NCBI GenBank assembly: GCA_903911145.1
Contig: CAIWCD010000006.1
Coordinates: 1 to 51,695, forward strand
Source of the DNA: an uncultured delta proteobacterium
GTDB taxonomy: Bacteria; Myxococcota; Myxococcia; Myxococcales; 40CM-4-68-19
Length of the DNA stretch: 51,695 nucleotides
Reading direction: 5' to 3'
The position numbers were made by a program, and so were the translations under genes. Position 1 is the stretch's first letter. The number at the start of each line of letters is the position of its first letter. Shown in pieces: positions 3,435-27,606 of the stretch. The notes below the pieces were generated by a model. The model ran no database searches and was not told the origin of the DNA. It worked only from the letters and a program-made list of their open reading frames with translations.

Positions 3435-3547
3435 TCGACGGCTCCATCACAGCGGTTCCCAATGGTTCGCAAGCTTTGGCAATCATTGGATCTGAGGCTG
3501 CCGCTGGCGTCCATCCATCACAACGATTCGGAGGGTTTTCCAAAGAT

Positions 3548-3569
3548 TTTGGTGCCAATTTGGTGCCAC
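3548..3569. other. Candidate integrase arm-binding sites, element 1 left side
   Basis: Two tandem 11-mers, TTTGGTGCCAA and TTTGGTGCCAC. The same 24-bp block occurs at 13626-13649 on the other side of the attachment core. Paired repeats on both arms of attP are typical of lambda-type integrase arm sites. Direct binding is inferred. Confidence 0.55.
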
Positions 3570-3793
3570 GATTTTCCGCGGATTCAGCTCGTGCATCGGC
3601 GGCTGAATATCTCGGCGCGCTCGAAGAATTGCTCACCGTCAGCCAGGTCGCCGCGCACTTCGGCGTCTGCACCGCGACCATCTACAAGTGGGCCGCGAGC
3701 GGCGTCCTTCCTCACGTACGCATCGTGAACGTCATCCGCGTTCGCCGCGCGGATCTCGCGCAGCTCATCGCCAACCTGCCTTGCGTTCGTTGA
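3563..3793 (+). CDS. Excisionase-like HTH domain; distal exon of the integrase in the circular form
   Basis: The last 55 residues form a MerR/AlpA-like HTH of the excisionase type (LLTVSQVAAHFGVCTATIYKW, then a basic wing). There is no in-frame ATG inside the element. The open frame runs back through the left attachment repeat to 3359, and the only in-element starts are GTG 3563 or TTG 3560 and 3621. The frame is the same as that of the integrase across the attachment site, so in the circular form this region becomes the C-terminal 119 residues of a 574-residue integrase. As an integrated, separate gene its expression is doubtful. It is homologous to the distal HTH of element 2 (27200-27562). 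Confidence 0.6.
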   Translation: MPRFSADSARASAAEYLGALEELLTVSQVAAHFGVCTATIYKWAASGVLPHVRIVNVIRVRRADLAQLIANLPCVR

Positions 3794-3827
3794 GGAGACC
3801 CGCAATAATATTGCCCGAGGTGCGGTT

Positions 3828-4436
3828 ATGATTGTTGGTCTGAGCGAGCGTCCAAGCGGAGGATTGTCCCTCAAAGAAGCGGCTGTGCTGGCGCGGGTCA
3901 CGGAGAAGAGCATCCGGCACGAGCTGGCGGCGAAGATCGTGCGACCGCTGCGACGCGCCCATCACCACGTCGAGTTTGATCCGCGAGTCGTGTTCTATCT
4001 CGCCCTCGTCTCAAGCCTGCCTGTCGAACTTCCGAAGAGCGAGCGACGAGATCTCTTCGAGTTGCTGACGCACGATCACGCAAAACACGGGAACTGGACG
4101 CGCGAGGCGAGTCGCCTGGTTCGGGGGGGCACGGTGCCGATCGAGGTTTCCACATCGGATCTCGGCCGCACCGTCGCCGAACGGCTCAGGCTGTTCTCTC
4201 GCGGCATGAAGCGCGTGGTTGCGACGACGGAGATCCTCGGCGGCGAACCGGTGTTCAAGGGCACGCGTGTCTCTGTTCGTCACGTGGGCCTGCTCGCGAA
4301 GAGAGACGTTCCGATGCCTGAGTTGCGCGAGGACTTCCCGAGCCTGTCCGAGGACGACATTGCCTTTGCGCGGCTCTTCGTTGAACTCGGCCGCGCTCCT
4401 GGCCGCCCGCGAAAGTTGAAGCTCATCCGCTCGTGA
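3828..4436 (+). CDS. DUF433-type antitoxin (VapB45-like)
   Basis: 202 residues. The N-terminal 60 residues look like a MerR-type HTH (GLSLKEAAVLARVTEKSIRH). The C-terminal part (about residues 135-190) is a DUF433 domain with TEILGGEPVFKGTRVSVRH. Such proteins neutralise and co-regulate PIN-like DUF5615 toxins. The stop overlaps the start of the next gene in a GTGA arrangement, which fits a two-gene operon. The ATG at 3828 has GAGGTGCGG upstream. Confidence 0.82.
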   Translation: MIVGLSERPSGGLSLKEAAVLARVTEKSIRHELAAKIVRPLRRAHHHVEFDPRVVFYLALVSSLPVELPKSERRDLFELLTHDHAKHGNWTREASRLVRGGTVPIEVSTSDLGRTVAERLRLFSRGMKRVVATTEILGGEPVFKGTRVSVRHVGLLAKRDVPMPELREDFPSLSEDDIAFARLFVELGRAPGRPRKLKLIRS

Positions 4437-4807
4437 AAGCGCTCATCGACGAAAACTTGTCGCCGTCCCTCGTCGAGAGACTCGGCGAGATCGGCATCGC
4501 CGCGGTGCATGTCGTCCACGTCGGCAAGAGCGGCGTAGACGACGCTGCGCTCTGGCAGTACGCGCTTGAGCAAGCCCGGGTGGTGATCACCATCAACGCC
4601 AGCGACTTTGTGAAGCTTGCGGAAGGGTCGGGAATCCACGCCGGGCTCGTCGTCCTTCGGTCGCAGGGGCTGTCGCGCGCGGAGCAGTGGGCCTGGATAA
4701 AGCCGGTCTTCGAGGCCGTCATTGGTTCTGGCGAGGATCTCCTCAACAGGGTCGTCGAGGTGACGAGTACTGGCAAGTTCACGGTCCGCGCGATTCCGCC
4801 CACCTGA
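4433..4807 (+). CDS. DUF5615 PIN-like toxin
   Basis: 124 residues. The N-terminus KALIDENLSPSLVERL and the later TINASDFVKLA carry the conserved acidic residues of the Mut7-C/DUF5615 PIN-like nuclease fold, which is a predicted RNase. The GTG start at 4433 overlaps the antitoxin stop, so the pair is translationally coupled. It is a plausible stabilisation module of element 1. Confidence 0.8.
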   Translation: MKALIDENLSPSLVERLGEIGIAAVHVVHVGKSGVDDAALWQYALEQARVVITINASDFVKLAEGSGIHAGLVVLRSQGLSRAEQWAWIKPVFEAVIGSGEDLLNRVVEVTSTGKFTVRAIPPT

Positions 4808-4852
4808 CAAATCGGTCCATCCGCACGGTCGGAGCAGATCCGCTCCGCGAGT

Positions 4853-5116
4853 TCAGTGGCCATTCGCTTCGCCGGCGAGTTCGGCCGGGTCGTAGTCGAT
4901 GATGGGCACGCGCATGCGGGAGAGCTCGTCCATGAAGCCCTGCTTCGAAAGCCCGGCGACATCCGCGGCCAGCCCCAGCGTCACCCGCTGCATCTCGAAG
5001 AGCTTGACGGCGAGCAACACACATAACTCATGCTCCAGCTCGTCCGCCGACCGCCCCGTCGCAATGGCGAGGTCGTCGAATCGCGGGACTGAAATCGAGT
5101 GCGGTTGCTGGCTCAC
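4853..5116 (-). CDS. UPF0175 family protein, orphan antitoxin-like
   Basis: 87 residues with the UPF0175 pattern: a central helix ELCVLLAVKLFE, an HTH-like LAADVAGLSKQGFMDEL and the C-terminal IDYDPAELAGE. UPF0175 proteins often precede a DUF3368 PIN toxin. No such toxin is encoded downstream here; the next gene in that direction is on the other strand, so this is an orphan. Confidence 0.72.
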   Translation of the reverse strand: MSQQPHSISVPRFDDLAIATGRSADELEHELCVLLAVKLFEMQRVTLGLAADVAGLSKQGFMDELSRMRVPIIDYDPAELAGEANGH

Positions 5117-5166
5117 GTCATGCTCCGTGTCTACGAATCATATCGCGCCCCATGCGTGACTGCGAT

Positions 5167-5430
5167 TCAGTACTCGTCGAGGTGCTCCCGAACGATCACT
5201 TTCAGCATGGGTTGGTAGCCGAGCCCCCTCTTCGCGGCTTTCTCGCGGAGCTTGTCGATCAGGTCCGGTTCGAGAACGATTGAGGTCGGCATATTCGTGC
5301 GGATCGGCCGAAGCCCACCGGCAGCGCGGATGTCCTCTCCGAGATCTCGCTTCTCAAACTCCTCGACGTGGAGGTCGTGGCTACGAACCTTCCTGGGAAC
5401 GGCGTTGGAGCTTTGCCTTCGCTTCGTCAT
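5167..5430 (-). CDS. CopG/BrnA-like antitoxin, orphan
   Basis: 87 residues. The C-terminal part (TSIVLEPDLIDKLREKAAKR, then GYQPMLKVIVREHL) is a ribbon-helix-helix of the type paired with BrnT-like toxins. Start ATG 5430 is set by a strong AGGAGG site 4 bases upstream; a possible upstream start at 5445 lies before it. No BrnT-like toxin gene is adjacent. Confidence 0.72.
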   Translation of the reverse strand: MTKRRQSSNAVPRKVRSHDLHVEEFEKRDLGEDIRAAGGLRPIRTNMPTSIVLEPDLIDKLREKAAKRGLGYQPMLKVIVREHLDEY

Positions 5431-5481
5431 AGAGCCTCCTTTCATTCCGTCGCATCGGTCGACAGCGTGCCGGTATCAGCA

Positions 5482-5709
5482 CTACTTCCCGAGGACGGCG
5501 CGCGCCCATGCCTTCGCCTCCCGAGAAGGGTTGCCATGCTCTCGCTGGATGTCCCTCACAAGCTGGGCCATCGATTCCGACTCCAACCGAGCCGACACGG
5601 CGCTTGCGATGTAGGCGCTCACGGATGGCGACCGTTGCGAGCGAACCTGGGCCCGCACTTGAGCGATGGTTCTCAGGTCCAGCGTGATGGCGATCTTCGC
5701 TTTGGACAT
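5482..5709 (-). CDS. Small RHH-type antitoxin-like protein, orphan
   Basis: 75 residues. MSKAKIAITLDLRTIAQVRA has the strand then helix pattern of VapB-like antitoxins, followed by VSAYIASAVSARLE. The C-terminal helix is charged. No toxin gene overlaps or follows. It diverges from the RT gene, with 74 bp between the two starts, so it could influence RT transcription (inference). Confidence 0.62.
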   Translation of the reverse strand: MSKAKIAITLDLRTIAQVRAQVRSQRSPSVSAYIASAVSARLESESMAQLVRDIQREHGNPSREAKAWARAVLGK

Positions 5710-5783
5710 GCTTTCATCATACCAACGGGAGGCGGCTCGCGAAACGGGGGAGTGACTACACGGACGGAGCGTGCGACTTCGGA

Positions 5784-6884
5784 GTGCGATTGCCCTCAAG
5801 CTTGCGCATGGCGCGATCCTCCGGCGACATCTTCGATGCACTCGCGAGCGTTGGTGCCCTCCAAAAGGCATGGTCGCGCGCGGCCAGGGGCAAGCGCGCG
5901 CGGCCGGACGTATGCGAGTTCGAACGAGGCTGGCCCGATGCCCTGGTCTCCCTGGCGCAGAGCCTGAGGGATGGTTCGTGGCGGCCTGCCGGATATCGCT
6001 CCTTCATCTGGCGCGAGCGCGGCAAGCGGCGGCTCATCTCGGCTGCGCCGTTCGCCGACCGTGTCGTCCACCACGCGATCACCGCCGCGATCGAGCCCAC
6101 CTACGAGCGCCGCTTCCTGCCCTGGAGCTTCGCCAACCGGCGCGGCCGGGGCACGCACGCCGCGCTCGCCCAGGCGCTGCACGGCGCGGCTCGCTTTCGC
6201 TGGGTGCTCAAGCTCGACGTGCAGCGGTTCTTCCCCAGCGTGGACCACGCCGTGCTGCTCGCTCTCCTGAGGAACGTCGTGCACGAGCGCGCGTTGCTGG
6301 AGCTGATCGAGCGCCTGTTGGCGAGCGGCAACGGCCTGCTCGCCTCCGAGTGGAAGCCGGTGCTCTTCCCCGGCGACGACCTGCTCGCGCTCACGCGGCC
6401 CAAGGGGCTGCCGATCGGCAACCAGACCAGCCAGTTCTTCGCCAACGTGCTCCTGCACCCGGTCGATCTGCTCATCGCGCAGCGGCTCCAGCCTGGGCTC
6501 GCGGCCCGCTATGTCGACGACATCCTGCTCTTCGACCACGATCGAGGCCGCTTGCACGACGCGCGCGCCGCCATCGAGGAGAAGCTCGCTTTGCTACGGC
6601 TCCGGGCGCACGAGCGAAAGACGCGGCTATGGGACGCGCGCGAAGGGGTTCCGTTCGTGGGCTATCGGGTGTTCCCGTGGGGCGCGAAGCTGCCGGGCGC
6701 GAGCGTGACTCGGTTGCGCTGCCACCTGCGCGCCGTGGCCGAGGAGTATGCGGACGGCGTTCTCGACCTGGCCGGCGCGAAGCAGCGCATCTCCGGGCTG
6801 ATTGGTCACGCTCGTCCGGCTCGTGCAGAGGCAGTCCTCGGCGATGCGCTCGATGATTTTCCGCTGGTTCGCCACCCGAAATGA
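5784..6884 (+). CDS. DGR reverse transcriptase
   Basis: 366 residues. The RT palm motifs are in order: LDVQRFFPSVDH (144-155), GLPIGNQTSQFFANV (208-222), ARYVDDILLF (241-250) and GVPFVGYRVF (288-297). The [IVL]GxxxSQ signature replaces the QGxxxSP of retron and group II RTs and is characteristic of DGR RTs. The enzyme would copy the TR RNA with adenine-specific errors into cDNA that replaces the VR. It is on the plus strand while target, avd and TR are on the minus strand, which is unusual. The start is GTG 5784 or ATG 5808; neither has a clear ribosome site. Confidence 0.92.
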   Translation: MRLPSSLRMARSSGDIFDALASVGALQKAWSRAARGKRARPDVCEFERGWPDALVSLAQSLRDGSWRPAGYRSFIWRERGKRRLISAAPFADRVVHHAITAAIEPTYERRFLPWSFANRRGRGTHAALAQALHGAARFRWVLKLDVQRFFPSVDHAVLLALLRNVVHERALLELIERLLASGNGLLASEWKPVLFPGDDLLALTRPKGLPIGNQTSQFFANVLLHPVDLLIAQRLQPGLAARYVDDILLFDHDRGRLHDARAAIEEKLALLRLRAHERKTRLWDAREGVPFVGYRVFPWGAKLPGASVTRLRCHLRAVAEEYADGVLDLAGAKQRISGLIGHARPARAEAVLGDALDDFPLVRHPK

Positions 6885-6889
6885 GCGGG

Positions 6890-7192
6890 CTACGGCAGAG
6901 GCGGACCGCTGCCCCGCGCCCCATGCCAGAGCGCATGAACGGTGGCGACTTCACCGTCGAGCGTGACGTAGAGCGCATACTGCGTGCGGGGCATCCTCAC
7001 CCGGCGCACAATCTTCCCCTCGACCTCGGCGAAGACCTGGGCGAGCAGGGGCGTGCTCTCAAGATGCGCGAGCGCGGCGGTCAGGTCCTCCTCGAATAGC
7101 TCCGCCGCTGCCAACCTGTTCACGCGCCACCAAGCGGCTGCCGCAAGGATCTGCGCTCGGGCGGCTGGCGTGAACTCGACCCGGACGGTCAA
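6890..7192 (-). CDS. ParE/RelE-superfamily toxin
   Basis: 100 residues. VEFTPAARAQILAAAAWW followed by a helical region, IVRRVRMPRTQYALYVTLD and VATVHALWHGAR matches the ParE-like fold: helical hairpin then strands. Members usually poison gyrase or ribosomal translation. The start overlaps the stop of the upstream antitoxin by 4 bp. The gene ends 6 bp from the RT stop, in convergent orientation. Confidence 0.82.
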   Translation of the reverse strand: MTVRVEFTPAARAQILAAAAWWRVNRLAAAELFEEDLTAALAHLESTPLLAQVFAEVEGKIVRRVRMPRTQYALYVTLDGEVATVHALWHGARGSGPPLP

Positions 7193-7425
7193 CGTGCGGA
7201 TCGGAGGTCGGCTAGGAGGTCGCTCGCAGGCACGCCCGTACCAGGGGAGTGGGTACGAATCGAATCTCCCAAGAAGCTGATGAGCCGCGCGCGTTCGCCA
7301 GTGTCAAGCTCGTCAATTTCGTCCATCGGAACGAGCTCAACCACAGTCCCGTCCGGCAGCGTGGTCGGCTCGTCGAGCACAAGCCGCCCACCAGACACCT
7401 TGGCTCGAAGTGGCGAAGAGGACAT
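7189..7425 (-). CDS. Antitoxin partner of the ParE-like toxin
   Basis: 78 residues from ATG 7425 (an alternative ATG is at 7437). The N-terminal half (RAKVSGGRLVLDEPTTLPDG) is a short beta-rich segment, and the C-terminal half is an acidic helix ending ASDLLADLRSAR, typical of the toxin-wrapping tail. It is coupled to the toxin by a 4-bp overlap. The pair sits between the DGR template repeat and the RT. Confidence 0.68.
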   Translation of the reverse strand: MSSSPLRAKVSGGRLVLDEPTTLPDGTVVELVPMDEIDELDTGERARLISFLGDSIRTHSPGTGVPASDLLADLRSAR

Positions 7426-7620
7426 GCCGGGAATCATAGCAGAGTGGAAAGAAAGGCGCCCCGCGCTGGCGACGCCATCCCCTGCTTCCGCGCGGCCCGG
7501 ACCCGCGCGCACGGCTCAACACCGCGCGCCGGCCCCGCCGACCACCCGAAGGAGGCCTGTAGGGTCCACCCGGCAACGACCGACCGCGAGTGGCCGCTGC
7601 TCGCTCGGGTGAAGGACTCG

Positions 7621-7731
7621 ACTGGGCACAACGAAACCCGTTGTTGTTGTTCCTGTTGGACGGATTGTTGTTGTTGCGGTTCGAAGCGCGGAAGTTCGTC
7701 GGATTGTCGTTGTTCCAGGAACCGCCGCGCA
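7621..7731 (-). other. DGR template repeat (TR)
   Basis: 111 bp, read on the minus strand. It aligns without gaps to the VR at 8312-8422 (offset 691). In the target frame it holds 14 Asn codons (12 AAC, 2 AAT), giving a large adenine load. 23 positions differ from the VR: 22 are adenines in the TR and one is C to T. Both ends match exactly: TGCGCGGCGGTTCCTGG at the 5' side and GGGTTTCGTTGTGCCCAGT at the 3' side. It lies 82 bp after avd. The GC-rich stretch 7432-7620 downstream would be the spacer part of the template RNA. Any peptide read from the TR is not a gene. Confidence 0.93.
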
Positions 7732-7813
7732 TCCGGCCTCCTCGGGCACTGCGCGCGCGAGCGTATCAGATGCTCGGCCCGGCGAACCTGCGAACCCCAA
7801 GGCGGGCATTGGA

Positions 7814-8149
7814 TCACCGAGCGAGCTTCTTGCGCCACCCGCCCAAGAGCCGGCCAGCCTCCGCGGTCAGCGTCATCAACTCGGTCGCGCGGCCCTCCGA
7901 GAACAGCCCGAGATCGACTCCGAGCCGCAGGCAGACCCGCCACCGCGCGAGCGCTACATCCGCCACACGCAGCGAGTCGAGCGGGCTCTGCGCCTGCGTC
8001 GCGCTGGTGATGGCTTCGTGGAAGTCGAACGCGGCCTCCTCCATCCGGCGGCCAAGGACCGCGCGCCGCGAGCGCGGCATCCGCTCGCTCTGCTTGCATG
8101 CTTCGCGCAACAGGTCATATGCGCGAGAGAAGAGCGGCGACTCGTTCAT
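7814..8149 (-). CDS. avd: DGR accessory variability determinant, Avd-like helical bundle
   Basis: 111 residues, almost wholly helical and rich in Arg, matching the size and four-helix-bundle character of bAvd proteins. These form a barrel that binds the RT and the template RNA and are needed for mutagenic homing. The start ATG 8149 follows GAAGGAGCCC. It sits between the target gene and TR on the same strand, the canonical position for avd. Recognition rests on position, size and fold pattern. Confidence 0.82.
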   Translation of the reverse strand: MNESPLFSRAYDLLREACKQSERMPRSRRAVLGRRMEEAAFDFHEAITSATQAQSPLDSLRVADVALARWRVCLRLGVDLGLFSEGRATELMTLTAEAGRLLGGWRKKLAR

Positions 8150-8309
8150 GGGCTCCTTCTACTCTCCTGGCGGCGGGGAAAAACCGAGCGCGACGAGCGA
8201 CCCGCCCTTCGGGCGGGAAGCATGGTGTCCACTCGCGGCCTCGTCTCTCGCTCTCGGAACTTCTGGAGTTCAGGAATCAGAAGCCAGAAATCAGGAATTC
8301 AACTGCGAC
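8150..8309. other. Target-avd intergenic region with hairpins
   Basis: Holds a perfect hairpin CCCGCCC-TTC-GGGCGGG (8201-8217), a smaller one GAACT-TCTGG-AGTTC (8257-8271), and imperfect copies of CAGGAATCAG/CAGAAATCAGGAATTC directly after the VR. Hairpins 3' of the VR are known to stimulate retrohoming in some DGRs; this could be that, or a terminator of the target gene. No T-tract follows on the minus strand. Confidence 0.45.
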
Positions 8310-10199
8310 CTACTGGGCACAACGAAACCCGAGGCTGGCGTACCTGAGGGACGGATCGTCGTAGAGGCGGTCCGAAACGCGGAAGTACGACGGATAGCCG
8401 CCGCCCCAGGAACCGCCGCGCAATTCCTTTCCGCCGTTGTAGTCGGTGTCCAACCACTCCCAGACGTTGCCCGCCAAATCCAAGAGGCCCTGCTTCGAGC
8501 GTCCGGCGGGATAGGCTCCCACCGGGCAAGTCGTCTTGCGGTTGCCCTTGCCCAGGTCACTGCCTTCTCCGTCCCAGCAGAGTTGGTTGCTCGGCGGTTG
8601 GTTACCCCAGGGATATTCGCGACCCTCGCCGCCGCTCGCAGCCCACTCGCGCTCTTCGGACTTCGGCAGGCGTCCGCCAATCCAGCCGCAGAACGCGGTC
8701 GCTTGGTTCCAATCGACGCAGTTGATGGGATGGTTCTCGCGTCGCGTCTTCCAGTTGCAGGCGGCGCCGGTCTGCGGCTCAGTGCACGCGCCCGCCGCGA
8801 CGCACTTCCCATACGCGGCCACCGTCGTCGCCGTGCGGCCCAGCGCGAACGGCGCCACGCGCGTGCCCGCGAAGTTGCCGCCCTCGAGCGCACCACCAGG
8901 GAGGTTCACGAACTCAAGCCCGCTCTTCGGCTCGATGCGCCCCTTGCCCGGAGACGCCGCCGCCGCCCGCGTAGAGAGAACGACGCGCTTCTGCGCGACC
9001 TTGCCCTCCTCGAGCTTCAGCTCGACCGCCTGCGACGAATCACTTGTCGTCACCTCGACGCTCTTGGTGCAGAGCGGGACCTTGAAGGTGCCTGGAACTT
9101 TCCCCAGCTCCTTTCCATCGAGGAGCGCACGCGCCTCGAGCGCGTTGCCCTTCTCGTCCTCGGCCGTCACTTTGAGTCCCGCGAGCCGCGGCTTGGCGAC
9201 GATGCGCAGTGGACGGTCTTCACCCTTCTTCAGCACCACCCGCTCACCGTCGCTCTGCCAGCATGGGTCGTCGATGACGACCTTGTGCTCGCCCGCTTTC
9301 AGCTCCCGCCACGCAAGAGGCGACGCCCCCGCTTCCTTGCCATCGATGCTGATGGCGATACCTGCTGGCTCGGTCTCGACGGAGACGCGAGCGGAGATGC
9401 GCACCAGCGTGACCTGCACCTTCGCGCCGTCCTTCGCCGCGAGCTGAGCGGTCTGCGGTTCGTATCCCTCGCGCTGCAACGAAACATCATGCGGCCCTTT
9501 GGCCACCAGCTTTGAGCAGGGCGTGGCTTGGCAGAGAACGGCTCCGTCGAGCAGCACCACCGCACCCGGCGGCTCGCTCGCGAACTGGACGACCACCTCG
9601 GCGTCGTCGCCGACCGCGACATCTTGCGCGGCTCCGCCGATGTGTCCTTCGCTGCCCGCGCCCTCGCTTGCGACGGTCGCACTGCGCTTCGCGGCATTCG
9701 AGCTACGCTTTGCTGTGGGAGCCGCACCAAGCGGGGAGACCAGGGTCACCAGCGCGGCGTCCGCTTGATCGACCAGCTCGTCAATGTTCGTGCCCCGCGC
9801 ATCCGCGCTCTGCAAAAGCCGCCCATCAAACGTGGAAAACAGCCGCATGGTGAGGAAGAGGTGCTTGCCGACCTGCGCGATGCGCCCGCTGACGATGTAA
9901 TCCGCGCCCAGCTTGCGGCCGGTTTCGACCTCGCACTCCCCAGTGCAATCCGCCACGGTCTTGCCGTTCGCTTGGAGCAGCGCCTCTGTGCTCTCGCGCG
10001 TCATCACGAACAGGTCGGGCGCGCGGCGGTTGACTGCGCTGCGCGCGAGATCGCTGAAAACCACTCGGTCGATCTTCAGACCCGGCGCGATCTCGAATTC
10101 GAGCACCGCGAGATGCTTCTGCTCGGCGGCGCGGGCGGAGAGAGGCGCGAGGGAGACGAGCGCGAGTCCGAGAAGGAAGGCCGAGCGAGCAGAGTTCAT
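8310..10199 (-). CDS. DGR target: secreted CsgG-like/PEGA/FGE-sulfatase-fold protein
   Basis: 629 residues. Signal peptide 1-24 (ends SARAAEQ). Residues about 28-150 resemble CsgG/TolB-type N-domains (HLAVLEFEIAPGL, ADYIVSGRIAQVG). At least two PEGA-like modules follow (about 195-325; SEPPGAVVLLDG, TEPAGIAISIDGKEAG). The C-terminal 215 residues form a formylglycine-generating-enzyme/C-type-lectin-like fold (NHPINCVDWNQATAFCGW, ELRGGSW, GFRCAQ). The VR is the last 36 codons, so diversity falls on the exposed lectin-fold surface. The likely role is a periplasmic or surface ligand-binding protein; the ligand is unknown. Start ATG 10199 is chosen because the signal peptide begins there. Confidence 0.88.
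   Translation of the reverse strand: MNSARSAFLLGLALVSLAPLSARAAEQKHLAVLEFEIAPGLKIDRVVFSDLARSAVNRRAPDLFVMTRESTEALLQANGKTVADCTGECEVETGRKLGADYIVSGRIAQVGKHLFLTMRLFSTFDGRLLQSADARGTNIDELVDQADAALVTLVSPLGAAPTAKRSSNAAKRSATVASEGAGSEGHIGGAAQDVAVGDDAEVVVQFASEPPGAVVLLDGAVLCQATPCSKLVAKGPHDVSLQREGYEPQTAQLAAKDGAKVQVTLVRISARVSVETEPAGIAISIDGKEAGASPLAWRELKAGEHKVVIDDPCWQSDGERVVLKKGEDRPLRIVAKPRLAGLKVTAEDEKGNALEARALLDGKELGKVPGTFKVPLCTKSVEVTTSDSSQAVELKLEEGKVAQKRVVLSTRAAAASPGKGRIEPKSGLEFVNLPGGALEGGNFAGTRVAPFALGRTATTVAAYGKCVAAGACTEPQTGAACNWKTRRENHPINCVDWNQATAFCGWIGGRLPKSEEREWAASGGEGREYPWGNQPPSNQLCWDGEGSDLGKGNRKTTCPVGAYPAGRSKQGLLDLAGNVWEWLDTDYNGGKELRGGSWGGGYPSYFRVSDRLYDDPSLRYASLGFRCAQ
8312..8422 (-). repeat. DGR variable repeat (VR)
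   Basis: The last 36 codons of the target gene. Relative to the TR, 17 of 36 residues differ; all but one change (Ala to Val) come from adenine substitutions. The codons next to the invariant RGGSW and GFRCAQ ends are unchanged. Confidence 0.93.
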
Positions 10200-10298
10200 T
10201 CTTGGGTCCCCGTGCGAGAGCGGTTCAGTCGGCACACTTAGCAGGTCTGGAGAAACCGCTCGAGCCGCGGCTCGAACTGTCGTCGCTTCCAGCGCCGT

Positions 10299-11451
10299 TC
10301 AATCAGCCCCCGGGATGCCGTATTTCGCCAGCGCCTCGCTGCCGCGCCGGGCATACTCGTTCATGACACGCAGGATCCCCGGCACTCGCTCCGGCACTGC
10401 CGGCAGCGCGTCGGCTGGCACTTTGAACCGCGCCAAAGCCTCACGAGCACGACTCAGCGCCGCGAGCGTGTTCTGCATCGTCTTCTCAAACTCAACGAGC
10501 TGCTCCCCGCGTACCGCGACGCGCCCGCGACGCAGCCGCTCGTCCATCGCGCTTTGCGCCGGACCGAGCGAATTCGCTGGCAGCGGCGGAGGCTGGGCCA
10601 CCACCGGCGGTGGCGCCGGATTCCGCGCGGCGCTGTTCCTACGAACTGGGTCTGGAACCCGATCGGCGTTGTAGATCGCGCGGCGCAAATAGAACCGGGC
10701 CTCGCCGAGCGTGAACACGCGCACCGGCATTTTCCTCCGCGCCTTCTCCTCTCGCTCGCGAATCACCTGATCGATCGTCTCGCGGCGCGCCTCGCTCTGC
10801 GCCACGAAGATCACCTCGGCCGGCCAGCCGTCCTTGAATGCGCTCGAGTAGAACGTCGAGCTATCGCCGTGATGCACGTTTCCGGCGTAGCCGGTCAAGA
10901 AGTGCGCGTAGCGGTCCAGCTTCGCCAGCGTCGACGTCGACTTCTTCACGTCGCGCACCGTCGCGGTGCCCGTCGAACTCCTTGAACGGCAGATCGAGAT
11001 ATTCGCCGAGCACCCACCGGAAATTCCGTGGCACCTTCGCCGGCGTCTTTCCGTCTTGCGCCACCAGACCGAGAAACACCTCATTGAGCAGAACTTCGTG
11101 TTTCAAAAACTGCTGCCCGACATCATGCTTTGGAGCCCGCTCCAGCTTCAGATTCAGACGCTCACAACCGATCTCGAATCCCTCTGCTGTCGCTGCCCAA
11201 ACCGCCGTCCATCCCTCTGCACTTCCAAACCCCAGATCACTTCTCAACACCGCACCCTGCCCGCCGACTTTCGCTGCCAACTGCCTCAGCCTCGTCGACG
11301 ATCTTGCTTTGCTTCTTCCTGGAAACATCAACCTCTCAATCTGTTCCCTGGTCAGATACCTGCACACTGCCAAAAATCCACACAACTCCCTGTCCCGATC
11401 TGTCATCTGCCTATTCCGCCCCGCCCCCTTCTCCACCGTCACTGCCTCCAT
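10299..11451 (-). pseudogene. Replication-relaxation (Replic_Relax) family gene with a frameshift
   Basis: The 5' part (11451 to about 10970) has the winged-helix start of this family: TDRDRELCGFLAVCRYLTRE, IERLMFPGRSKARSSTRL. The protein continues in the next frame from about 10970 to 10299 (STLAKLDRYAHFLTGYAG, then EVIFVAQSEARRETIDQV). One extra G in a GGG run near 10965-10975 would explain it. The family is found on plasmids and integrative elements and is linked to replication or relaxation, poorly characterised. Start ATG 11451 has GGGAG upstream. It could be a real pseudogene, a sequencing error or programmed frameshifting. The palindrome at 11467 lies just upstream of the start. Confidence 0.7.
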
Positions 11452-11466
11452 GATTTTCTCCCTCTA

Positions 11467-11530
11467 CCTCTACCGATCCCCTGCCACCCTTTCCCGTCGT
11501 TGGGAGAGGGTGGCAGGGGATCGGTAGAGG
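11467..11530. repeat. Perfect 24-bp palindrome with 16-nt loop, element 1
   Basis: Arms 11467-11490 and 11507-11530 are perfectly complementary. The loop read on the minus strand is CTCCCAACGACGGGAA. It sits in the divergent region between the replication-relaxation gene and the RHH-HTH-integrase operon. Element 2 has a counterpart with a closely similar loop (24169-24223). Candidate origin, transfer site, terminator or REP-like repeat. Confidence 0.8.
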
Positions 11531-11712
11531 TGTTTGCGCGGCGCTCTTGCCGCGCATGGTTCGATGCGACAACACATCGATTTCGCGGGGCGGAATCGGC
11601 AGCCGCCTCGAAACCCAACTCGAAACCACCGTGGGTGCAATGACCCGAAACCATCTGATCGAGACCCCGATCGAGGCTGTTTCGCGGTCGGCTTTCCGTA
11701 GTGTGCATGACG

Positions 11713-11745
11713 TTGACTTGTATGACACGACGCTGTACACGTCAA
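11713..11745 (+). promoter_or_regulatory. Candidate promoter/operator of the RHH-HTH-integrase operon, element 1
   Basis: TTGACT (11713-11718), 17 bp, TACACG (11736-11741), 25 bp before the RHH start. The same segment forms an inverted repeat TTGACTTGTA / TACACGTCAA (9 of 10), a plausible site for autoregulation by the RHH protein. Confidence 0.45.
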
Positions 11746-11766
11746 TACGCACTGCGAGGAGCACGC

Positions 11767-12117
11767 ATGGGCCCGAAGTCGAACAACCGCATCACCTCCG
11801 ACGAGAAACCAGTCGTCTCGTTTCGCATGTCGTTCAGGCTGACCGCCTGGCTCAAGGATGTCGCTTCGAAGCGAGCCTGGTCGATGAACGAGTACGTCGT
11901 CAGCGCACTCGAGGGCCTGCAACGGATGTGGGGATTCCCCGCGATGATGGCCGACGTGCTCGAAGCCGATCGCAAGGCGATGGGGCTCGATGAGTTCGAT
12001 TACATCGGCCACCTGCTCGTGCGCCGATACAACGAGATCCGCGATCAGGGCGGGCCAGGCTTCGAGAAGAAAGCCAAGCGCAAGGGCGACCAGAGCGGCG
12101 TCGGAAGGCACGAATGA
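11767..12117 (+). CDS. RHH-like DNA-binding protein, first gene of the integrase operon
   Basis: 116 residues from ATG 11767, preceded by GCGAGGAGCACGC. Residues about 17-50 (VVSFRMSFRLTAWLKDVASK, then SMNEYVVSALEGL) follow a ribbon-helix-helix pattern. The rest is helical with a basic tail (EKKAKRKGDQ). It overlaps the next gene by 4 bp (ATGA). The same order, RHH-HTH-integrase, occurs in element 2. It probably represses the operon and may help partition or excision (inference). Confidence 0.72.
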   Translation: MGPKSNNRITSDEKPVVSFRMSFRLTAWLKDVASKRAWSMNEYVVSALEGLQRMWGFPAMMADVLEADRKAMGLDEFDYIGHLLVRRYNEIRDQGGPGFEKKAKRKGDQSGVGRHE

Positions 12118-12389
12118 GCGCCATCACGAACGCGCCGCAGATCAATGGCTCCGCATCGAGGAGCGGGATCACCTCGCGCCCACCGTCGCGAATCTCTCAG
12201 TCGTGTGACCGACTCTGGGACGCGGTCGACGTCGCCACCTTTCTCAAGACCTCGCGCTCCTGGGTCTATATGCGAGCGGAGCGCAACGAAATCCCCTTCC
12301 TGCGAATCGGTGGCCTCCTTCGCTTTCAGCCGAGCAAGATCCGCGAGTGGGCTGCGTCGGGCGCGGCTGCTGTCAGACAGATCCGCTAG
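12114..12389 (+). CDS. Excisionase-like HTH protein
   Basis: 91 residues. The C-terminal half is a HTH_17/AlpA-like domain (LWDAVDVATFLKTSRSWVYM, then FLRIGGLLRFQPSKIREWAA). Proteins of this type bend attachment DNA and direct recombination toward excision. It overlaps the RHH gene by 4 bp and ends 9 bp before the integrase start, so all three are probably one transcript. Confidence 0.78.
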   Translation: MSAITNAPQINGSASRSGITSRPPSRISQSCDRLWDAVDVATFLKTSRSWVYMRAERNEIPFLRIGGLLRFQPSKIREWAASGAAAVRQIR

Positions 12390-12398
12390 GAGTCGACA

Positions 12399-13826
<1,428 letters not shown>

Positions 13827-21925: not shown

Positions 21926-22000
21926 GGGCGCGTAGCTCAGTGGTAGAGCACTGCCTTGACACGGCAGTGGTCGCAGGTTCGAACCCTGCCGCGCCCACCA
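21926..22000 (+). tRNA. tRNA-Val (anticodon GAC)
   Basis: 75 nt. Acceptor stem GGGCGCG/CGCGCCC followed by ACCA, D-loop GCTCAGTGGTAGAGC, anticodon stem CTGCC/GGCAG with loop TTGACAC, T-loop GTTCGAACC. It is intact and is the integration site of element 2. Confidence 0.95.
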
Positions 22001-23316
22001 ATTTTATCCCCCGACAAACCGGTAGTTACAGACTCTCCATCGGGCTCATGCGTGCAGTTTTTCGCGTCGTGCAGCAAGAATGCAGCAAGCGGCGCGGCAG
22101 GCACCGGCGCATGCGCATCGACCGCGGCGCGCAGGTCCTCGACCAGCAGGTGCGCATAGGTCCCAGTAGTGACCCGCACATCGCTATGCCGCATTAGCCG
22201 TTGGACACGGTGAACGTCGACGCCGCAGCGGAGCATCTCGGTCGCGTACAAGTGCCGCAGGTCGTGAAAGCGCATTGGCAGCGGCACAGCTTTGGCCCAG
22301 AGCATTCGCCCGCGCGTCTCTTTCGCAGGCTTACCGAGCCCGTTGGTGCGCTTCACGCATTTCGGACAGAAACGCTGCTCGCGATCCTGATGTTGCTCGC
22401 TGTGCTTGCACCAGCGGCAGCGGTGATCCCATGCCGAGGCGATGCCGGCTCGTGCGAGCGCCCTGCGCAAGACCTTCTGCGGCTGGATATCGCGCCCGCG
22501 CTGGGAGCCATCTGGCGCAGGAAAGAGCAGCGGGCCTGGGGCGTTCTCGATCTGATGCTTGATCCAAGGCAACAGCGCTGCCGGAAGGGGAAGCAAAGCC
22601 GCTGCGCTGGTCTTGGTCGTATCGCGAAGGTGCGAGCGCGCAATGGTCAGCGTCGCCCGCTCGAGGTCAACGTCGCTCTTCCTCAACGCGTATAGCTCGC
22701 CTTTGCGCAGCCCCAGCGCAGGCCCGCACGCGAAGAGCGGTCGCCACTCCTCGGGGATGTGCTCGAGCATGCGCGCCATCTGCTCTGGCGTGAGCGTTAC
22801 ATAGACGCGCTTGGGGACCTTGCGCGGCTCGGTGGCGGTGAGAGGATTCTCGCCGATCCAGCGCCCGGCCCTGCGCGCCTTGGCGAAGACGACATGCAAC
22901 ACGCTGCGGACCTTGTTGACGCTCGCAGGCGCAGCGCCGGCCTTCTCGACGGAATGTAGAAGCCCATCGAGATCGACGTGGCGAAGGCGAGGCAGAGTGA
23001 TGGCACCGATCTTCGCGTCCAGGACGTGCTTCTTCAGGCGCCGCGTCTCGATTTCGCGGCTCGGTTCCGGGCAGCGCTCTGCAAGCCACCAGCGGCAGAG
23101 ATCGGCGAGAGTACCGGAGAGATCCTCTTGCGCCGGATCGAGCCCGGCGGTCTGGCGCAGCTTCGCGCGCCGAGCGGACTGCTCCTGCAGCTGGAGCTCG
23201 GCGATGAGCCCTTTGGCCTCCATCCGCGAATGCGCCTCGGTCGCGCGCTGGGTCCAACCCTCCGGCCCGCGCCAACGCACGTACCAGGTGCCGTTGCGAT
23301 CAAAGATGCTCGCCAT
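21937..23316 (-). CDS. int: Tyrosine integrase whose frame runs through the att site into antisense tRNA-Val
   Basis: 459 residues as integrated. Catalytic boxes: [31 protein letters not shown] and [18 protein letters not shown] zinc-ribbon-like insertion ([11 protein letters not shown] then FCPKCVKR) precedes the HxxR box. The N-terminus [20 protein letters not shown] resembles the element 1 integrase. The frame passes through the attachment repeat ([15 protein letters not shown]) and ends AVLYH in the tRNA antisense. In the circle it would continue in frame for 119 residues after that Lys to the distal HTH, giving 573 residues. ATG 23316 lies 1 base after the HTH gene's stop codon. Confidence 0.92.
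21956..22001 (+). repeat. Left attachment repeat of element 2
   Basis: Identical to 27561-27606; comprises tRNA-Val from the anticodon loop to the 3' end plus one base. Confidence 0.93.
22070..22091. other. Candidate integrase arm-binding sites, element 2 left side
   Basis: Tandem 11-mers TGCAGCAAGAA and TGCAGCAAGCG, 68 bp from the attachment repeat. The same period and arrangement as in element 1 but a different sequence. Confidence 0.5.
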
Positions 23317-23317
23317 C

Positions 23318-23623
23318 TCATCTCCCGCCGCGCGTGATCGAGATCGCGCCGGGCCGCATTCGCGTCACTCCACTCGCAAACGCGTAGAGATCGGCCGGCA
23401 CGAACCGCAGGCCCCAACCAAGGCCCACCGCGCGAGGCAGCACGCCGCTCTCGGCGGCTTTGTAGACCCACGAGACGGAGCGCGAAAGAAACGCCGCAGC
23501 CTGATGCACCGTCCAGAGCCGATCGGGCGGGAGCGACATTCGCGTGCGGGGACCTGCTGCTTCGCCAGTACCGGCCTCGATACCGCCTGGCGTGGGGGCT
23601 GGCTGTTCGTTCGCGTCGCTCAT
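23318..23623 (-). CDS. Excisionase-like HTH protein
   Basis: 101 residues from ATG 23623. HTH_17-type domain: LWTVHQAAAFLSRSVSWVYK, AVGLGWGLRFVPADLYAFAS. The Pro/Gly-rich N-terminus is probably flexible. The gene ends just before the integrase start and begins 14 bp after the RHH stop. An open frame extends upstream into the RHH gene, but the spacing supports ATG 23623. Confidence 0.75.
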   Translation of the reverse strand: MSDANEQPAPTPGGIEAGTGEAAGPRTRMSLPPDRLWTVHQAAAFLSRSVSWVYKAAESGVLPRAVGLGWGLRFVPADLYAFASGVTRMRPGAISITRGGR

Positions 23624-23637
23624 TGCTGCCTCTTGGA

Positions 23638-23850
23638 CTACTTCTTCTTGGGGAGTTGCGGGAGCGGACCGTGCTCGCGCTCGACCTGCTCGAGGCCGCG
23701 CACGATCAGCATACGGACCACTGTGCTCAGCTTCGCGTTGAGCCCAGGGTCGCGCTCGTTGAGAAAGTGCAGGTACCGGTCGAGCTTGTTCGTCGTCGCG
23801 AGATCTACGCGCGCGCTCACGACAGAGAATTCTGTGTTTGGTGTTTGCAT
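23638..23850 (-). CDS. RHH-like DNA-binding protein of element 2
   Basis: 70 residues from ATG 23850. FSVVSARVDLATTNKLDRYL, then KLSTVVRMLIVRGLEQVERE, gives the strand-helix-helix pattern of CopG/Arc-like regulators. First gene of the RHH-HTH-integrase operon, with a probable operator at 23864-23907. A longer version from 23907 is unlikely because it would cover the operator. Confidence 0.68.
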   Translation of the reverse strand: MQTPNTEFSVVSARVDLATTNKLDRYLHFLNERDPGLNAKLSTVVRMLIVRGLEQVEREHGPLPQLPKKK

Positions 23851-23863
23851 GTTGGATCCTGTT

Positions 23864-23907
23864 TTGACGATAATTGTATACAAGCACGATACCGTCACGC
23901 ACGTCAA
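23864..23907 (-). promoter_or_regulatory. Candidate operator of the element 2 integrase operon
   Basis: Inverted arms TTGACG (23864-23869) and CGTCAA (23902-23907) flank a perfect palindrome TTGTATACAA (23874-23883). Element 1 has a similar TTGAC/GTCAA inverted repeat in the same place. Confidence 0.4.
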
Positions 23908-23984
23908 AGTGATTCATCGCTCCATACGTCTGTTTGTGCGAGATCGATCTCAGCGATGTCTTGAGTTCCTCGCCAGCGAAGCCA

Positions 23985-24088
23985 GTGTGCTTCGTGGTGT
24001 CCTCGCTGGTGTGATCTCAGGTGTAGCAAGCGGTGTGGTGGACAGGAGACACCACGAAGCACACCGCCGATCACACTACGAAGCACAC
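23985..24088. repeat. Cluster of inverted and direct repeats (ACGAAGCACAC)
   Basis: A perfect 17-bp inverted repeat: GTGTGCTTCGTGGTGTC (23985-24001) and its complement at 24048-24064. A third ACGAAGCACAC is at 24078-24088. A second inverted pair GTGTGATC/GATCACAC is nested at 24009-24016 and 24069-24076. Iteron-like; a possible replication, transfer or regulator binding region. Confidence 0.6.
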
Positions 24089-24128
24089 TCGGTCGCGCGG
24101 AAGTATCCGGCGTTGCTCGAACTGCCGA

Positions 24129-24258
24129 CCATGCCTGCCCCCCGACTCTCCGCCCGACTGGCGCCTGCGGTTGATCCTGACCCCTCCCTCTCAACGACGG
24201 AGATGGAGGGGTCAGGATCAACCTGGGAGTGAGAAATCAGAATCGGGGGCAGGCATGG
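24129..24258. repeat. Nested palindrome, element 2
   Basis: Inner arms GGTTGATCCTGACCCCTCC (24169-24187) and 24205-24223 are perfectly complementary over 19 bp around a 17-nt loop, CTCTCAACGACGGAGAT. Outer arms CCATGCCTGCCCCC (24129-24142) and 24245-24258 pair over 14 bp. The loop is nearly the same as in the element 1 palindrome. Confidence 0.75.
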
Positions 24259-24628
24259 CAATTGGGAGGAAGCAGAAGAAAGAGGTGGTGAATAGAGATG
24301 TTTATGTAGGCGGCACTTAAGATGCAGAACAGTATAAGTAAGGGAAAGTAAAGATTGTGTTTTTTTTAAGACAATTAAAACGAAGAAAAAGCGAAGGGAC
24401 AAGACGAAGAGGCGGGGCCGAATCAGGAATCGGAACGAGGACCGCGCGAGACTGGGAATTGGTCGGGCACGCGGAATTAATGAAGTACGTGAGGGAGAGA
24501 CAGTTGCAGCGGTTGGTGTTCGCGTCACCGGTGTTGGCGACGAGTCGGAAGAAGAGAACAGGAGGGTGACATGTTGCGGAGAGGGGCGGGGAGAGAAACC
24601 AAGCCATCGGGAACAGCGCGTTTTGAGC
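24259..24628. other. AT-rich non-coding stretch
   Basis: No convincing gene on either strand. Base composition is distinctly AT-richer than its neighbours (for example a run of T near 24358-24366 and ATTAAAACG), which suggests foreign origin or a melting region next to the repeats. Confidence 0.5.
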
Positions 24629-26200
24629 CTATAGGGACTTTCCGTGATCCGCGGGCAGTTCCAAAATAATCAGATCACCTTCCCTACGGACCGTGCCGAG
24701 CGAGGTCAGACATGAGGCGGCTTTGTCGCGTTCTTCGGTTGTAGTGACCACTGACAGCTTTGTGGTTGATCCTTTTTCGGCTCGAGCAACTTCCGATAAC
24801 GCGAACTTCGCGACGCCAGCTTCGGCGAGACGCCCAGCGCTATCGGCGACGAGCTTTGTATCGCGTTTGATCGCATCTATTTCATTTAGGATCGCCTCGG
24901 TGTTTTGCTTGGCGCTCATCAACTCATCCAAGAAGTGACCAGTGCCTTTGTCCACATAGGCCTGCTCAACCCGGGCGTGAGCGTCCTCGAGGCGATGCCA
25001 CTCCCTGAAGTTGAGCCACCAAGTTTGAGGCCGTGTGGCCGGCATCGGGCGCACTCCAATATCATTAAAAACGGAAACATGAGAAATTGGCGCGCGTGCA
25101 ACACCCACGCAGCTTGCAACATCACAAGTAAACGCGTCCAGGGCGATCAGTAGTGGCCTTTGAGACGCGATGCTCTCTGCAATAGCGGTGGGCGGCGACG
25201 TGGCACTGCGAAATAGCACCTCCGGGTTCGAGGACGGTTGGGGCGTCGCGCTCAAGTCCTTGCCACCTAACGAGGTGACTGATCGAATGAGGTCGTCAGC
25301 GTTCCGCGACGCTGGAAGCTGCTCGTTCGCGCGCGTCAGAATGCTCCGCAGTTTTGCAAGATCGCCCTCAAATGCCGCCCTGTTTTGTGCGACCTGCTTA
25401 AGCCGGTGCTCGTGGTCTTCCTGCTTCCGCAATTCGAGACGAACTTCGGCGGCTTCCTGTTCCGCGCGATTGAATACAGCAGATGCAGTGAGTGCAAACA
25501 CAACTGAAATTGAAACTGGGATTATCCAAGCCTTAACCGAAAATCCGGTTACAGGTTTCGTGGGTTGGATGGCGGCAACACGAGCATCGGCGGTCAATGC
25601 TTCGCGGAAGAAGCGGAGTTGGATCACCACGATATTTAACAGCAGAGGTACCGTTGTGCTGAGGAGCAGTAGGAAATGCCTTCCATTGAGGACACAGCCT
25701 CGCGCGGATATGCTCGATGTCAGCACCGCGATCACGATGAACACGGATACCGCGCACGCGACAGAGATAAACCTCGTTCGTGCGACACGACTAGGATCTG
25801 GCCGTCCAAGAGAATCGACGAGGAGTATCAGCCAAGAAATGGCTATAGTGGCGCATACGACTGCGCTTGTTTGCTCCCCGAGCGTTGTGCACTGTGCTTG
25901 CATGGCCCCGCCGGCGACGTCATTACTCGCCAAACATCCTCGCTGAATCTCTTCGGCCGCAGCGCAGGTAAACACCGCCAGTAGAGCAGCATAGAAGTCC
26001 GCACGCGCGAGACGAAAAAGCAGGTTGCCGTTCCGCCAAAGCCGGCGAACTATCGCCGCGGTGATAACTGGCGCAATAAGAACAACCCCCTTCTCGAAAG
26101 AGACATGCGGAGTTGTAATCGCGGCCCCCGTCACGAGGACGCCGAGGAAGAGAGGAATCGCGAGAACCGAAATCGATGTCCAGTAGGCGACGCGTCGCAT
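24629..26200 (-). CDS. Large membrane protein of unknown function, cargo of element 2
   Basis: 523 residues. About six or seven hydrophobic segments lie in residues 5-245 (first ISVLAIPLFLGVLVTGAA, last AWIIPVSISVVFALTASAVF). A charged helical, coiled-coil-like region follows (about 245-290), then a soluble C-terminal half with further helices near 410-470. I do not recognise the family. It is the only large cargo gene of the element, in AT-richer DNA, which makes a defence or accessory role possible but unproven. Start ATG 26200 has AAGGG upstream. Confidence 0.7.
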   Translation of the reverse strand: MRRVAYWTSISVLAIPLFLGVLVTGAAITTPHVSFEKGVVLIAPVITAAIVRRLWRNGNLLFRLARADFYAALLAVFTCAAAEEIQRGCLASNDVAGGAMQAQCTTLGEQTSAVVCATIAISWLILLVDSLGRPDPSRVARTRFISVACAVSVFIVIAVLTSSISARGCVLNGRHFLLLLSTTVPLLLNIVVIQLRFFREALTADARVAAIQPTKPVTGFSVKAWIIPVSISVVFALTASAVFNRAEQEAAEVRLELRKQEDHEHRLKQVAQNRAAFEGDLAKLRSILTRANEQLPASRNADDLIRSVTSLGGKDLSATPQPSSNPEVLFRSATSPPTAIAESIASQRPLLIALDAFTCDVASCVGVARAPISHVSVFNDIGVRPMPATRPQTWWLNFREWHRLEDAHARVEQAYVDKGTGHFLDELMSAKQNTEAILNEIDAIKRDTKLVADSAGRLAEAGVAKFALSEVARAEKGSTTKLSVVTTTEERDKAASCLTSLGTVRREGDLIILELPADHGKSL

Positions 26201-26474
26201 TCGACACCCTTACCATTTCCTGTTCCCGGGCATCCCTGGAACGACATTCCATCTCATCGCGTCGTGACGATAGCCGCTTTTGTGCGTCGCGTAGCGGCAT
26301 CGACGCAGCGGGTGCAAATCCCGTCCGGGTAAGTCATCGAAGCGCCCGGCAGCATGCCCTGCGCTTGCGTCAGTATGCCGGGCCAACATTATGCGGCGAC
26401 AGACGAACCGTCGGCCCCCTTCTCTCCGCGAAACCTGAGTGCTAGAATGGGACAAACGTAACACGAGGCTCCCC

Positions 26475-26738
26475 ATGCCCAAGACCGTCGAGACTTATCG
26501 GACCACCAAGGCGCTGCGCGAGCTCGTGCGACGCGCGGCCAAGATGGAAAGCAAGCGGCCGTCCGAGTTTCTCCGCGAGGCCGCTGAGGAAAAGGCGAAG
26601 GCCGTGTTGGCAGCAGCGGCGCGCGAGGAGCTGCGCGCAATGCTCGCCAAGCTACCGCCAGGTCGCGCTGCAACCAACAAGGCGGCAGAGCACCTCGGGG
26701 AAGAGGCGGCACGAGCGGCTCGGAACGCGCGCAAGTGA
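26475..26738 (+). CDS. RHH-like antitoxin
   Basis: 87 residues from ATG 26475. TYRTTKALRELVRRAAKMES, RPSEFLREAAEEKAKAV: an RHH-like DNA-binding start and a charged helical tail. It overlaps the following PIN gene by 4 bp. A longer form from 26439 would add 12 residues without clear ribosome site. Confidence 0.72.
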   Translation: MPKTVETYRTTKALRELVRRAAKMESKRPSEFLREAAEEKAKAVLAAAAREELRAMLAKLPPGRAATNKAAEHLGEEAARAARNARK

Positions 26739-27169
26739 GGATCGTCCTCGACTCCTCCGTGGTGGTGGCCGCGCTGACCACGCCCAACACTGCTTCTGCC
26801 TCGCGGGTCGTCCTCGCCGCGGCAGCCGCCGGAGCTATACAGTTTGTCATCACCGACGAGATCGAGGCCGAGTACCGCCGCGCCGTCGAGTATCAAAGAG
26901 TGGCGCGCTACGCGGCGAAGGTCGATCGCCAAGCCTTCGTGTCTATGATTGTCGCCACAGCGGACCGCGTGAAAGCAGAGCCAGCAATCGGCGTCGTTCC
27001 CGACGATCCCGGCGACGACATGGTCATGGGCGCGGCCTTCGCTGGGCGGGTCGAGTTCGTGGTGAGCCTCGATCAGCACCTGCTTCGTCTGAAGAAGCTC
27101 CGCGGCATCGCGATCGTTAAACCAGGTGACCTCCTGCGCGAGATGCGTTTGCACCTTTTGCCAGAGTGA
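26735..27169 (+). CDS. PIN-domain toxin (VapC-like)
   Basis: 144 residues. Conserved acidic residues in RIVLDSSVVVAALTTP (Asp 6), ITDEIEAEYRRAV, VPDDPGDDMVMGAA and VSLDQHLLRLKKL match PIN nucleases of the COG1569 type. Start GTG 26735 overlaps the antitoxin stop. Probably a ribonuclease toxin that stabilises element 2. Confidence 0.82.
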   Translation: MRIVLDSSVVVAALTTPNTASASRVVLAAAAAGAIQFVITDEIEAEYRRAVEYQRVARYAAKVDRQAFVSMIVATADRVKAEPAIGVVPDDPGDDMVMGAAFAGRVEFVVSLDQHLLRLKKLRGIAIVKPGDLLREMRLHLLPE

Positions 27170-27199
27170 ATTCGGGCAGCGCGCAACTGGCGCAATGCC

Positions 27200-27562
27200 T
27201 CATCGAGCGCCGCCGCGCAGCCGCGCAACGTACGCGGCCAGTTCATCGAGCGAGACCCGAATGGCAGCGCCAACGCGCACGTGCCCCAGCTCACCGCGTT
27301 CGCAGAGGCGGTAGACAATTGGCGTGCTTACGCCAAGCCTGCGAGCGACTTCGCGAACTCCAAGCAACGTCAGACCGAACGTTGGAGGGAACCTGCCTCC
27401 ACTGCCTTTTTCGTGCAGCAAATTTGCAGCAAGAGGCCCTCCAACCCCTGCTAAATCCTGCCGATCCGAGCCAATCGAGGCTTTGCGCTCATGCAGCAAG
27501 GCACTGTGATTTCCAGTGCTTGCCAGCGGTGATGAAATACTGCTATCGCTTTGGACGGGTTT
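27200..27562 (-). CDS. Excisionase-like HTH domain; distal exon of the element 2 integrase in the circular form
   Basis: The last 55 residues are an HTH_17 domain (LTLLGVREVARRLGVSTPIV, LGHVRVGAAIRVSLDELAAY). There is no ATG or GTG in frame inside the element. The open frame runs back through the right attachment repeat into host DNA (first ATG 27688). Its frame equals the integrase frame across the attachment site, so circularisation gives a 573-residue integrase ending here. Similar in sequence to the distal HTH of element 1. Confidence 0.6.
   Translation of the reverse strand, partial: KPVQSDSSISSPLASTGNHSALLHERKASIGSDRQDLAGVGGPLAANLLHEKGSGGRFPPTFGLTLLGVREVARRLGVSTPIVYRLCERGELGHVRVGAAIRVSLDELAAYVARLRGGAR
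27414..27435. other. Candidate integrase arm-binding sites, element 2 right side
   Basis: Tandem TGCAGCAAATT and TGCAGCAAGAG; a single TGCAGCAAGGC follows at 27492-27502. Same orientation as 22070-22091. Confidence 0.5.
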
Positions 27563-27606
27563 GACACGGCAGTGGTCGCAGGTTCGAACCCTGCCGCGCC
27601 CACCAA
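27561..27606 (+). repeat. Right attachment repeat of element 2 (tRNA-Val 3' fragment)
   Basis: Identical to 21956-22001. Lacks the 5' half of the tRNA, so it is not a functional tRNA. Confidence 0.93.

Follow-up and report, generated by a model that had tools for sequence, protein, structure and literature searches.

An integrase gene with a putative attachment site between its catalytic core and a C-terminal helix-turn-helix domain in tRNA elements of Myxococcota

Two elements on one contig and their joined ends

The stretch analysed, here called the window, covers positions 1 to 51,695 (51,695 nucleotides, nt) of contig CAIWCD010000006.1 of an uncultured delta proteobacterium (Myxococcota; assembly GCA_903911145.1) and holds two elements integrated at transfer RNA (tRNA) genes, element 1 at a tRNA-Pro and element 2 at a tRNA-Val. 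In both, the integrase gene (int) runs antisense into the tRNA gene, and the opposite end of the element encodes a helix-turn-helix (HTH) domain. The target of element 2 is an intact tRNA-Val(gac) gene recognised by ARAGORN (21926-22000, plus strand), whose 3' half forms the int-side copy (21956-22001) of an exact 46-nt direct repeat, the attachment (att) repeat; the distal copy lies at 27561-27606. The tyrosine integrase (23316-21937, minus strand; PF00589 in the fused form described below, and phrog_1) enters this 3' half antisense, crosses the att repeat and stops within the tRNA-Val gene, and the resulting integrated form of 459 residues terminates in CRVKAVLYH, of which AVLYH is derived from the host.

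When position 21956 is joined to 27560, as in an excised circle assembled in silico, the frame of int stays open for 119 further residues to a stop at 27200, giving a protein of 573 residues. The distal 3' part of the gene (27200-27560, minus strand; 119 codons and a stop codon), which the circle junction puts in the frame of int, encodes an HTH_17 or excisionase-family DNA-binding domain (27221-27367, minus strand), matched by PF12728 (E=2.5e-11; 44.1 bits against a curated cut-off of 27) and by TIGR01764 (E=1.7e-11; 44.3 bits against 28.8). Pfam finds PF00589 and PF12728 and nothing else in the fusion, with HTH_17 at residues 519-567 (E=1.5e-10), and the Phage_integrase match lies entirely before att and is kept in the 459-residue integrated form; the detachable HTH end makes up the last fifth of the gene. 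A standalone AlpA/excisionase-like HTH gene (23318-23611, minus strand; HTH_17, E=7e-4; phrog_25665, excisionase) lies directly upstream of int and stays beside it in the integrated and the excised states.

Element 1 spans 3331-13764 and has the same anatomy. Its tRNA-Pro lies at 13717-13793, and its att repeat of 104 nt occupies 13661-13764 on the int side and 3331-3434 on the distal side. The integrated form of its integrase (12399-13826, plus strand; 475 residues) reads antisense into tRNA-Pro, a standalone excisionase-like HTH gene of 91 codons lies upstream of it (12114-12389, plus strand), and the distal part of the integrase gene (3435-3793, plus strand) carries HTH_17 at about 3629-3772. 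Joining the ends in silico gives 574 residues ending at 3793, again with both the integrase domain and the HTH, the latter matched by HTH_17 at residues 521-568 (E=1.1e-11). The original prediction, made from the DNA letters and their open reading frames, had claimed that int of element 2 crosses the tRNA-Val repeat to end in AVLYH and gains 119 in-frame residues reaching into an HTH, for a total of 573 residues against 574 in element 1; the joined ends and the HTH_17 matches bear out both statements, and the two fusions, whose alignment it had proposed, can be aligned end to end (BLASTP, 1e-56).

Relatives in the genome and across the Myxococcota

With the fusion as query, three additional full-length integrase copies were found in the genome, two of them resolvable. 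On contig C13 a 12.5-kb element at tRNA-Arg(ccg), bounded by a 52-nt repeat, yields on joining of its ends an open in-frame fusion of integrase and HTH (Int-HTH) of 649 residues, and on contig C18 a 9.3-kb element at tRNA-Arg(acg), with an imperfect repeat, yields one of 653 residues; the third copy, on contig C16, was left out because it lies too near the contig start. Counting the window pair, the genome thus has four elements that can be resolved, and each shows the in-frame Int-HTH design.

Almost every Myxococcota genome has an integrase of this broad family, with matches in 178 of 179. From 74 regions around the better matches we obtained 32 elements with a usable repeat and retained 29, leaving out one that duplicates another locus (L019, equal to L177), one with a doubtful repeat and no tRNA (L235), and a 1.4-kb remnant (L022). 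Joining the ends produced an open in-frame Int-HTH in 23 of the 29, and these fusions fall into 13 clusters at 50% identity. One further element (L224) has the HTH in frame and a stop just past the junction, two (L186, L192) were counted as broken since their integrase ends before att, and three, taken up below, continue in frame into a different tail. An HTH in a frame other than that of int occurs in none of the 29 usable elements, and it does occur in the excluded remnant, in which the integrase is truncated. The frame in which the tRNA is read across att varies between elements, so a shared tRNA frame does not account for the frame match, and the probability of frame agreement alone by chance, with the clusters taken as independent, is about 6e-7, or (1/3)^13. 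Independently of the HTH model of the survey, Pfam and NCBIfam detected the domain in 23 of 26 distal parts scanned. The view that the in-frame split is unlikely to be coincidental thus stands, and the many relatives without an HTH or out of frame that would have counted against it did not appear. Near-equality of total length, also remarked on in the original prediction, holds for the window pair and fails as a rule of the family, since the other fusions range from 536 to 661 codons, counted from the preceding stop.

Among Myxococcota integrases with an adjacent tRNA gene, 56 of 59 read into it. In the read-through elements the host-derived tail after integration has a median of 6 codons, and across the survey integration takes off 90-161 C-terminal residues. 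The elements measure 4-17 kb, and to the Val and Pro targets of the window the relatives add tRNAs for Arg, Gly, Met, Asp and Leu. At least 24 of the 29 have a separate HTH gene upstream of int. Many of the genomes are metagenome bins; several of the elements (L180, L181 and L217 among them) come from genomes that consist of a single contig, and one from the isolate Archangium lansinium (L212). Outside the phylum (Bacillota, Chloroflexota and others), three of five integrases beside a tRNA gene stop short of it and two read in, and an HTH was found in none of the five. Two integrases, from Dormibacterota and Chloroflexota (L046, L056), likewise read into a tRNA gene, and their distal ends were not found. 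In a search of IMG/VR for free viral copies, none of the integrase frames at the loci examined had an HTH, and the HTH profile gave no match; the distal end of element 2 matched no phage record, and no plasmid record reached 80% coverage of its fusion.

Uninterrupted genes of this form also exist in nature. The integrase of phage Mx9 is a single gene of 548 codons in which a 42-nt stretch of tRNA-Gly identity (nt 2000-2041) directly precedes HTH_17 (residues 489-537). Contig L250 (genome G040) carries an intact Int-HTH frame of 549 residues over a 47-nt half of tRNA-Gly, with no tRNA gene at that place, and contig L191 has the same arrangement in a frame that runs off the contig end. At positions 1-8700 of L210 a tandem array occupies a tRNA-Asp, and there one element has an intact int that reads on in frame into its neighbour's HTH end; its own joined circle is likewise in frame. 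This array suggests that HTH ends may be exchanged between elements inserted in tandem at one tRNA.

Direct repeats resembling arm-type sites flank att on both sides. In element 2 two copies of GCTGCA with an 11-bp period lie inside int (22069-22089, minus strand), and the same repeat recurs in the same reading frame on the distal side (27413-27433, minus strand); in element 1 the int-side site (GTGCCAATTTGGTGCCACGA; 13630-13649, plus strand) is matched at 20 of 20 bases, again in the same frame, by the distal site (3552-3571, plus strand). Sites with the 11-bp tandem period were found on the distal side in 28 of the 29 surveyed elements and on the int side in 27; for most of them the distance is 80-93 nt ahead of att or 115-131 nt past the distal repeat. 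The two sides have 16-20 of 20 bases in common and, except in three elements, an equal reading frame. Tn916 Int binds direct repeats of 11 bp through its N-terminal domain, and the sites found here are reminiscent of those. Since the arm sites of both sides lie within coding sequence, the entire attachment site of the circular form (attP), together with its arms, lies within coding sequence.

The two parts of the gene also appear to have evolved together. In seven comparable element pairs the ratio of nonsynonymous to synonymous substitution rates (dN/dS) of the HTH end in the fused frame is 0 to 0.33, mostly 0.1-0.3, which indicates purifying selection. Pairwise distances of Int and HTH are correlated (Mantel r=0.80, p=2e-4; r=0.57, p=0.002 for 14 cluster representatives), and the C-terminal HTHs cluster apart from the standalone HTHs adjacent to int, with the exception of one long-branch sequence, Mx8 Uoi.

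A proposed reversible change of direction and its alternatives

As read from the sequence, attP lies in the linker that joins the catalytic core to the C-terminal excisionase-family HTH, so that the circle would carry a whole integrase gene that integration parts. On the proposed course of events, the excised circle would encode Int-HTH; recombination at the 3' half of the tRNA would part the gene and strand the HTH-coding piece at the opposite end of the element; the integrated Int would retain the full core followed by a short tail from host DNA; and excision would make the gene whole again. By analogy with Mx8 and from the anatomy, Int-HTH would be the form competent for integration, and the shortened Int, together with the separate upstream HTH protein, would carry out excision; the C-terminal HTH would then probably set the direction of the reaction. 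We consider it very likely that elements 1 and 2 are tRNA-targeted elements with attP inside their own int, in which integration splits Int-HTH; by rewriting the gene, this would switch the enzyme reversibly from inserting to leaving. That this switch extends to a whole class of bacterial integrases across the phylum, whose direction is set as recombination adds or removes the HTH, with Int-HTH inserting and shortened Int plus a separate HTH protein excising, and in which tandem insertion at one tRNA lets elements swap their HTH ends, is put forward tentatively, as a possibility of somewhat less than even weight.

Several observations weigh against the proposed switch. Three relatives (L229, L230, L242; 3 of 29) keep the frame for a further 90-109 residues that contain no recognisable HTH, so an HTH is not required in every case. 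The linker is under weak constraint only (dN/dS about 0.26-0.86; its codon length is equal in 6 of 7 pairs). The HTH model of the survey was derived from five family members, both window elements included, and the fusions are mostly in-silico joins. Finally, an ATG or GTG stands in frame in 18 of the 23 distal parts, and the HTH might therefore also be produced by itself in the integrated state.

The best-surviving alternative, which we nevertheless regard as unlikely, is that the arrangement serves compaction only: attP inside int keeps gene and site together, and the HTH is needed for integration and its loss has no regulatory meaning. The placement of the arm sites of both sides in coding sequence, as in a compact module, and a catalytic core that is complete without the HTH agree with this. 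A functional switch is nevertheless favoured by the separate excisionase-like HTH gene beside int in most of the surveyed elements and by Mx8, in which the changed Int has an altered specificity (PMC6070905).

Less probable still is that the integrated element goes on producing the HTH as a protein of its own, either from a start codon inside the distal part or through translation that enters from host DNA, and that this protein acts in trans with the shortened Int in the manner of a split enzyme. The internal ATG and GTG codons would allow this, as would an in-frame TTG of element 2 on the host side, at 27688. However, the number of start codons is close to that expected from base composition (63 ATG or GTG in the 23 distal parts against 54.7), five elements, including element 2, have neither codon, and the host flanks vary from site to site. 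These counts also bear on the claim that the distal HTH has no ATG or GTG start: it is correct for element 2, where TTG codons are present, and does not hold in general (element 1 has an in-frame GTG within the linker), and we rejected a missing start codon as a general sign. That the element end holds an independent HTH gene, a second excisionase or a regulator whose frame relation to int is coincidental, is very hard to credit: separate excisionases of the HTH_17 type are common and in-frame starts often precede the domain, yet 23 fusions in 13 clusters are open and in frame with no usable element in another frame, the C-terminal and the standalone HTHs form separate groups, and intact fused genes exist (Mx9, L250).

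The elements also carry other genes. Cargo in both window elements is toxin-antitoxin-like, namely a TacA-like antitoxin with a PIN-domain protein in element 2 (26475-27169, plus strand; PF08681, PF13470) and DUF433 with DUF5615 in element 1 (3828-4807). The largest gene of element 2 (24629-26200) encodes a protein of 523 residues, membrane-bound in appearance and without a Pfam match. Element 1 houses a diversity-generating retroelement (5784-6884, 7621-7731 and 8310-10235) with a reverse transcriptase (RVT_1, 7e-19), in which template and variable repeat differ at 23 sites, 22 of them at template adenines; its target is a PEGA/FGE-sulfatase protein with the variable repeat at its end.

Relation to known integrases

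The principle is already known from the phages Mx8 and Mx9, and the Int of Mx9 has the identical domain order. The Mx8 case was reportedly described by Magrini and colleagues (1999) as regulation by reversible covalent modification, with Uoi as a probable excisionase. In Mx8 and Mx9 attP lies within int and the 3' end of int is replaced on integration, so the split integrase is not a new principle; the Mx8 enzyme is not inactivated by integration and is modified in specificity, and Mx9 recombines at specific attachment sites by a similar principle (PMC6070905). The Mx9 integrase (AY247757) resembles those of the window in joining a tyrosine integrase and a C-terminal HTH_17 in one gene with a tRNA-Gly(ccc)-identical stretch just before the HTH; it differs in belonging to a phage and in matching the 5' half of tRNA-Gly, and the search that found the 11-bp arm repeats of the elements did not find them on both sides in Mx9. 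Mx8 is similar in having attP inside int at the 3' end of tRNA-Asp and the separate excisionase-like Uoi upstream, and differs from the window elements in a C-terminal part without HTH_17, as in the three relatives named above. The tails of those relatives are alanine-rich, and such an extension is perhaps a second kind of removable tail. Both window elements have the features of the Mx8/Mx9 type of self-modifying integrase: an attP in the int reading frame, a host-derived C-terminus with the core kept, a tRNA target and a Uoi-like upstream gene.

The 'suicidal' integrases of archaea (SSV1, pTN3, pT26-2) also have att inside the integrase gene, which is parted on integration. In them integration divides the protein between its N-terminal part and the catalytic domain (PMC8371274), whereas here the core remains whole and an added HTH is lost; in element 2 the core is not separated from the N-terminal part, and Pfam reported no PF16795 (Phage_integr_3). 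Because the catalytic core survives, these elements, with Mx8 and Mx9, are milder bacterial counterparts. Mycobacteriophage BPs and its relatives, which show integration-dependent immunity, are alike in that attP lies in a coding gene whose C-terminus is changed by integration and differ in that the altered gene is the repressor and not int (PMC4557955).

In the literature accessible to the search we found no description of a phylum-wide spread in elements of 4-17 kb, of an HTH as the usual removable part, or of embedded arms; these three, namely the extent across the phylum, the conserved HTH module and the anatomy of the arms, are what is new here. A 2021 review confines recombinases that disrupt their own gene to archaea, a statement that the elements described here run counter to (PMC8371274). 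Compact int-attP modules of this kind are possible integration tools for myxobacteria. The enzyme itself would be a naturally reversible self-editing one, which gains and loses a defined DNA-binding domain, and an old, little-followed observation on two phages would become a common rule for the tRNA elements of Myxococcota.

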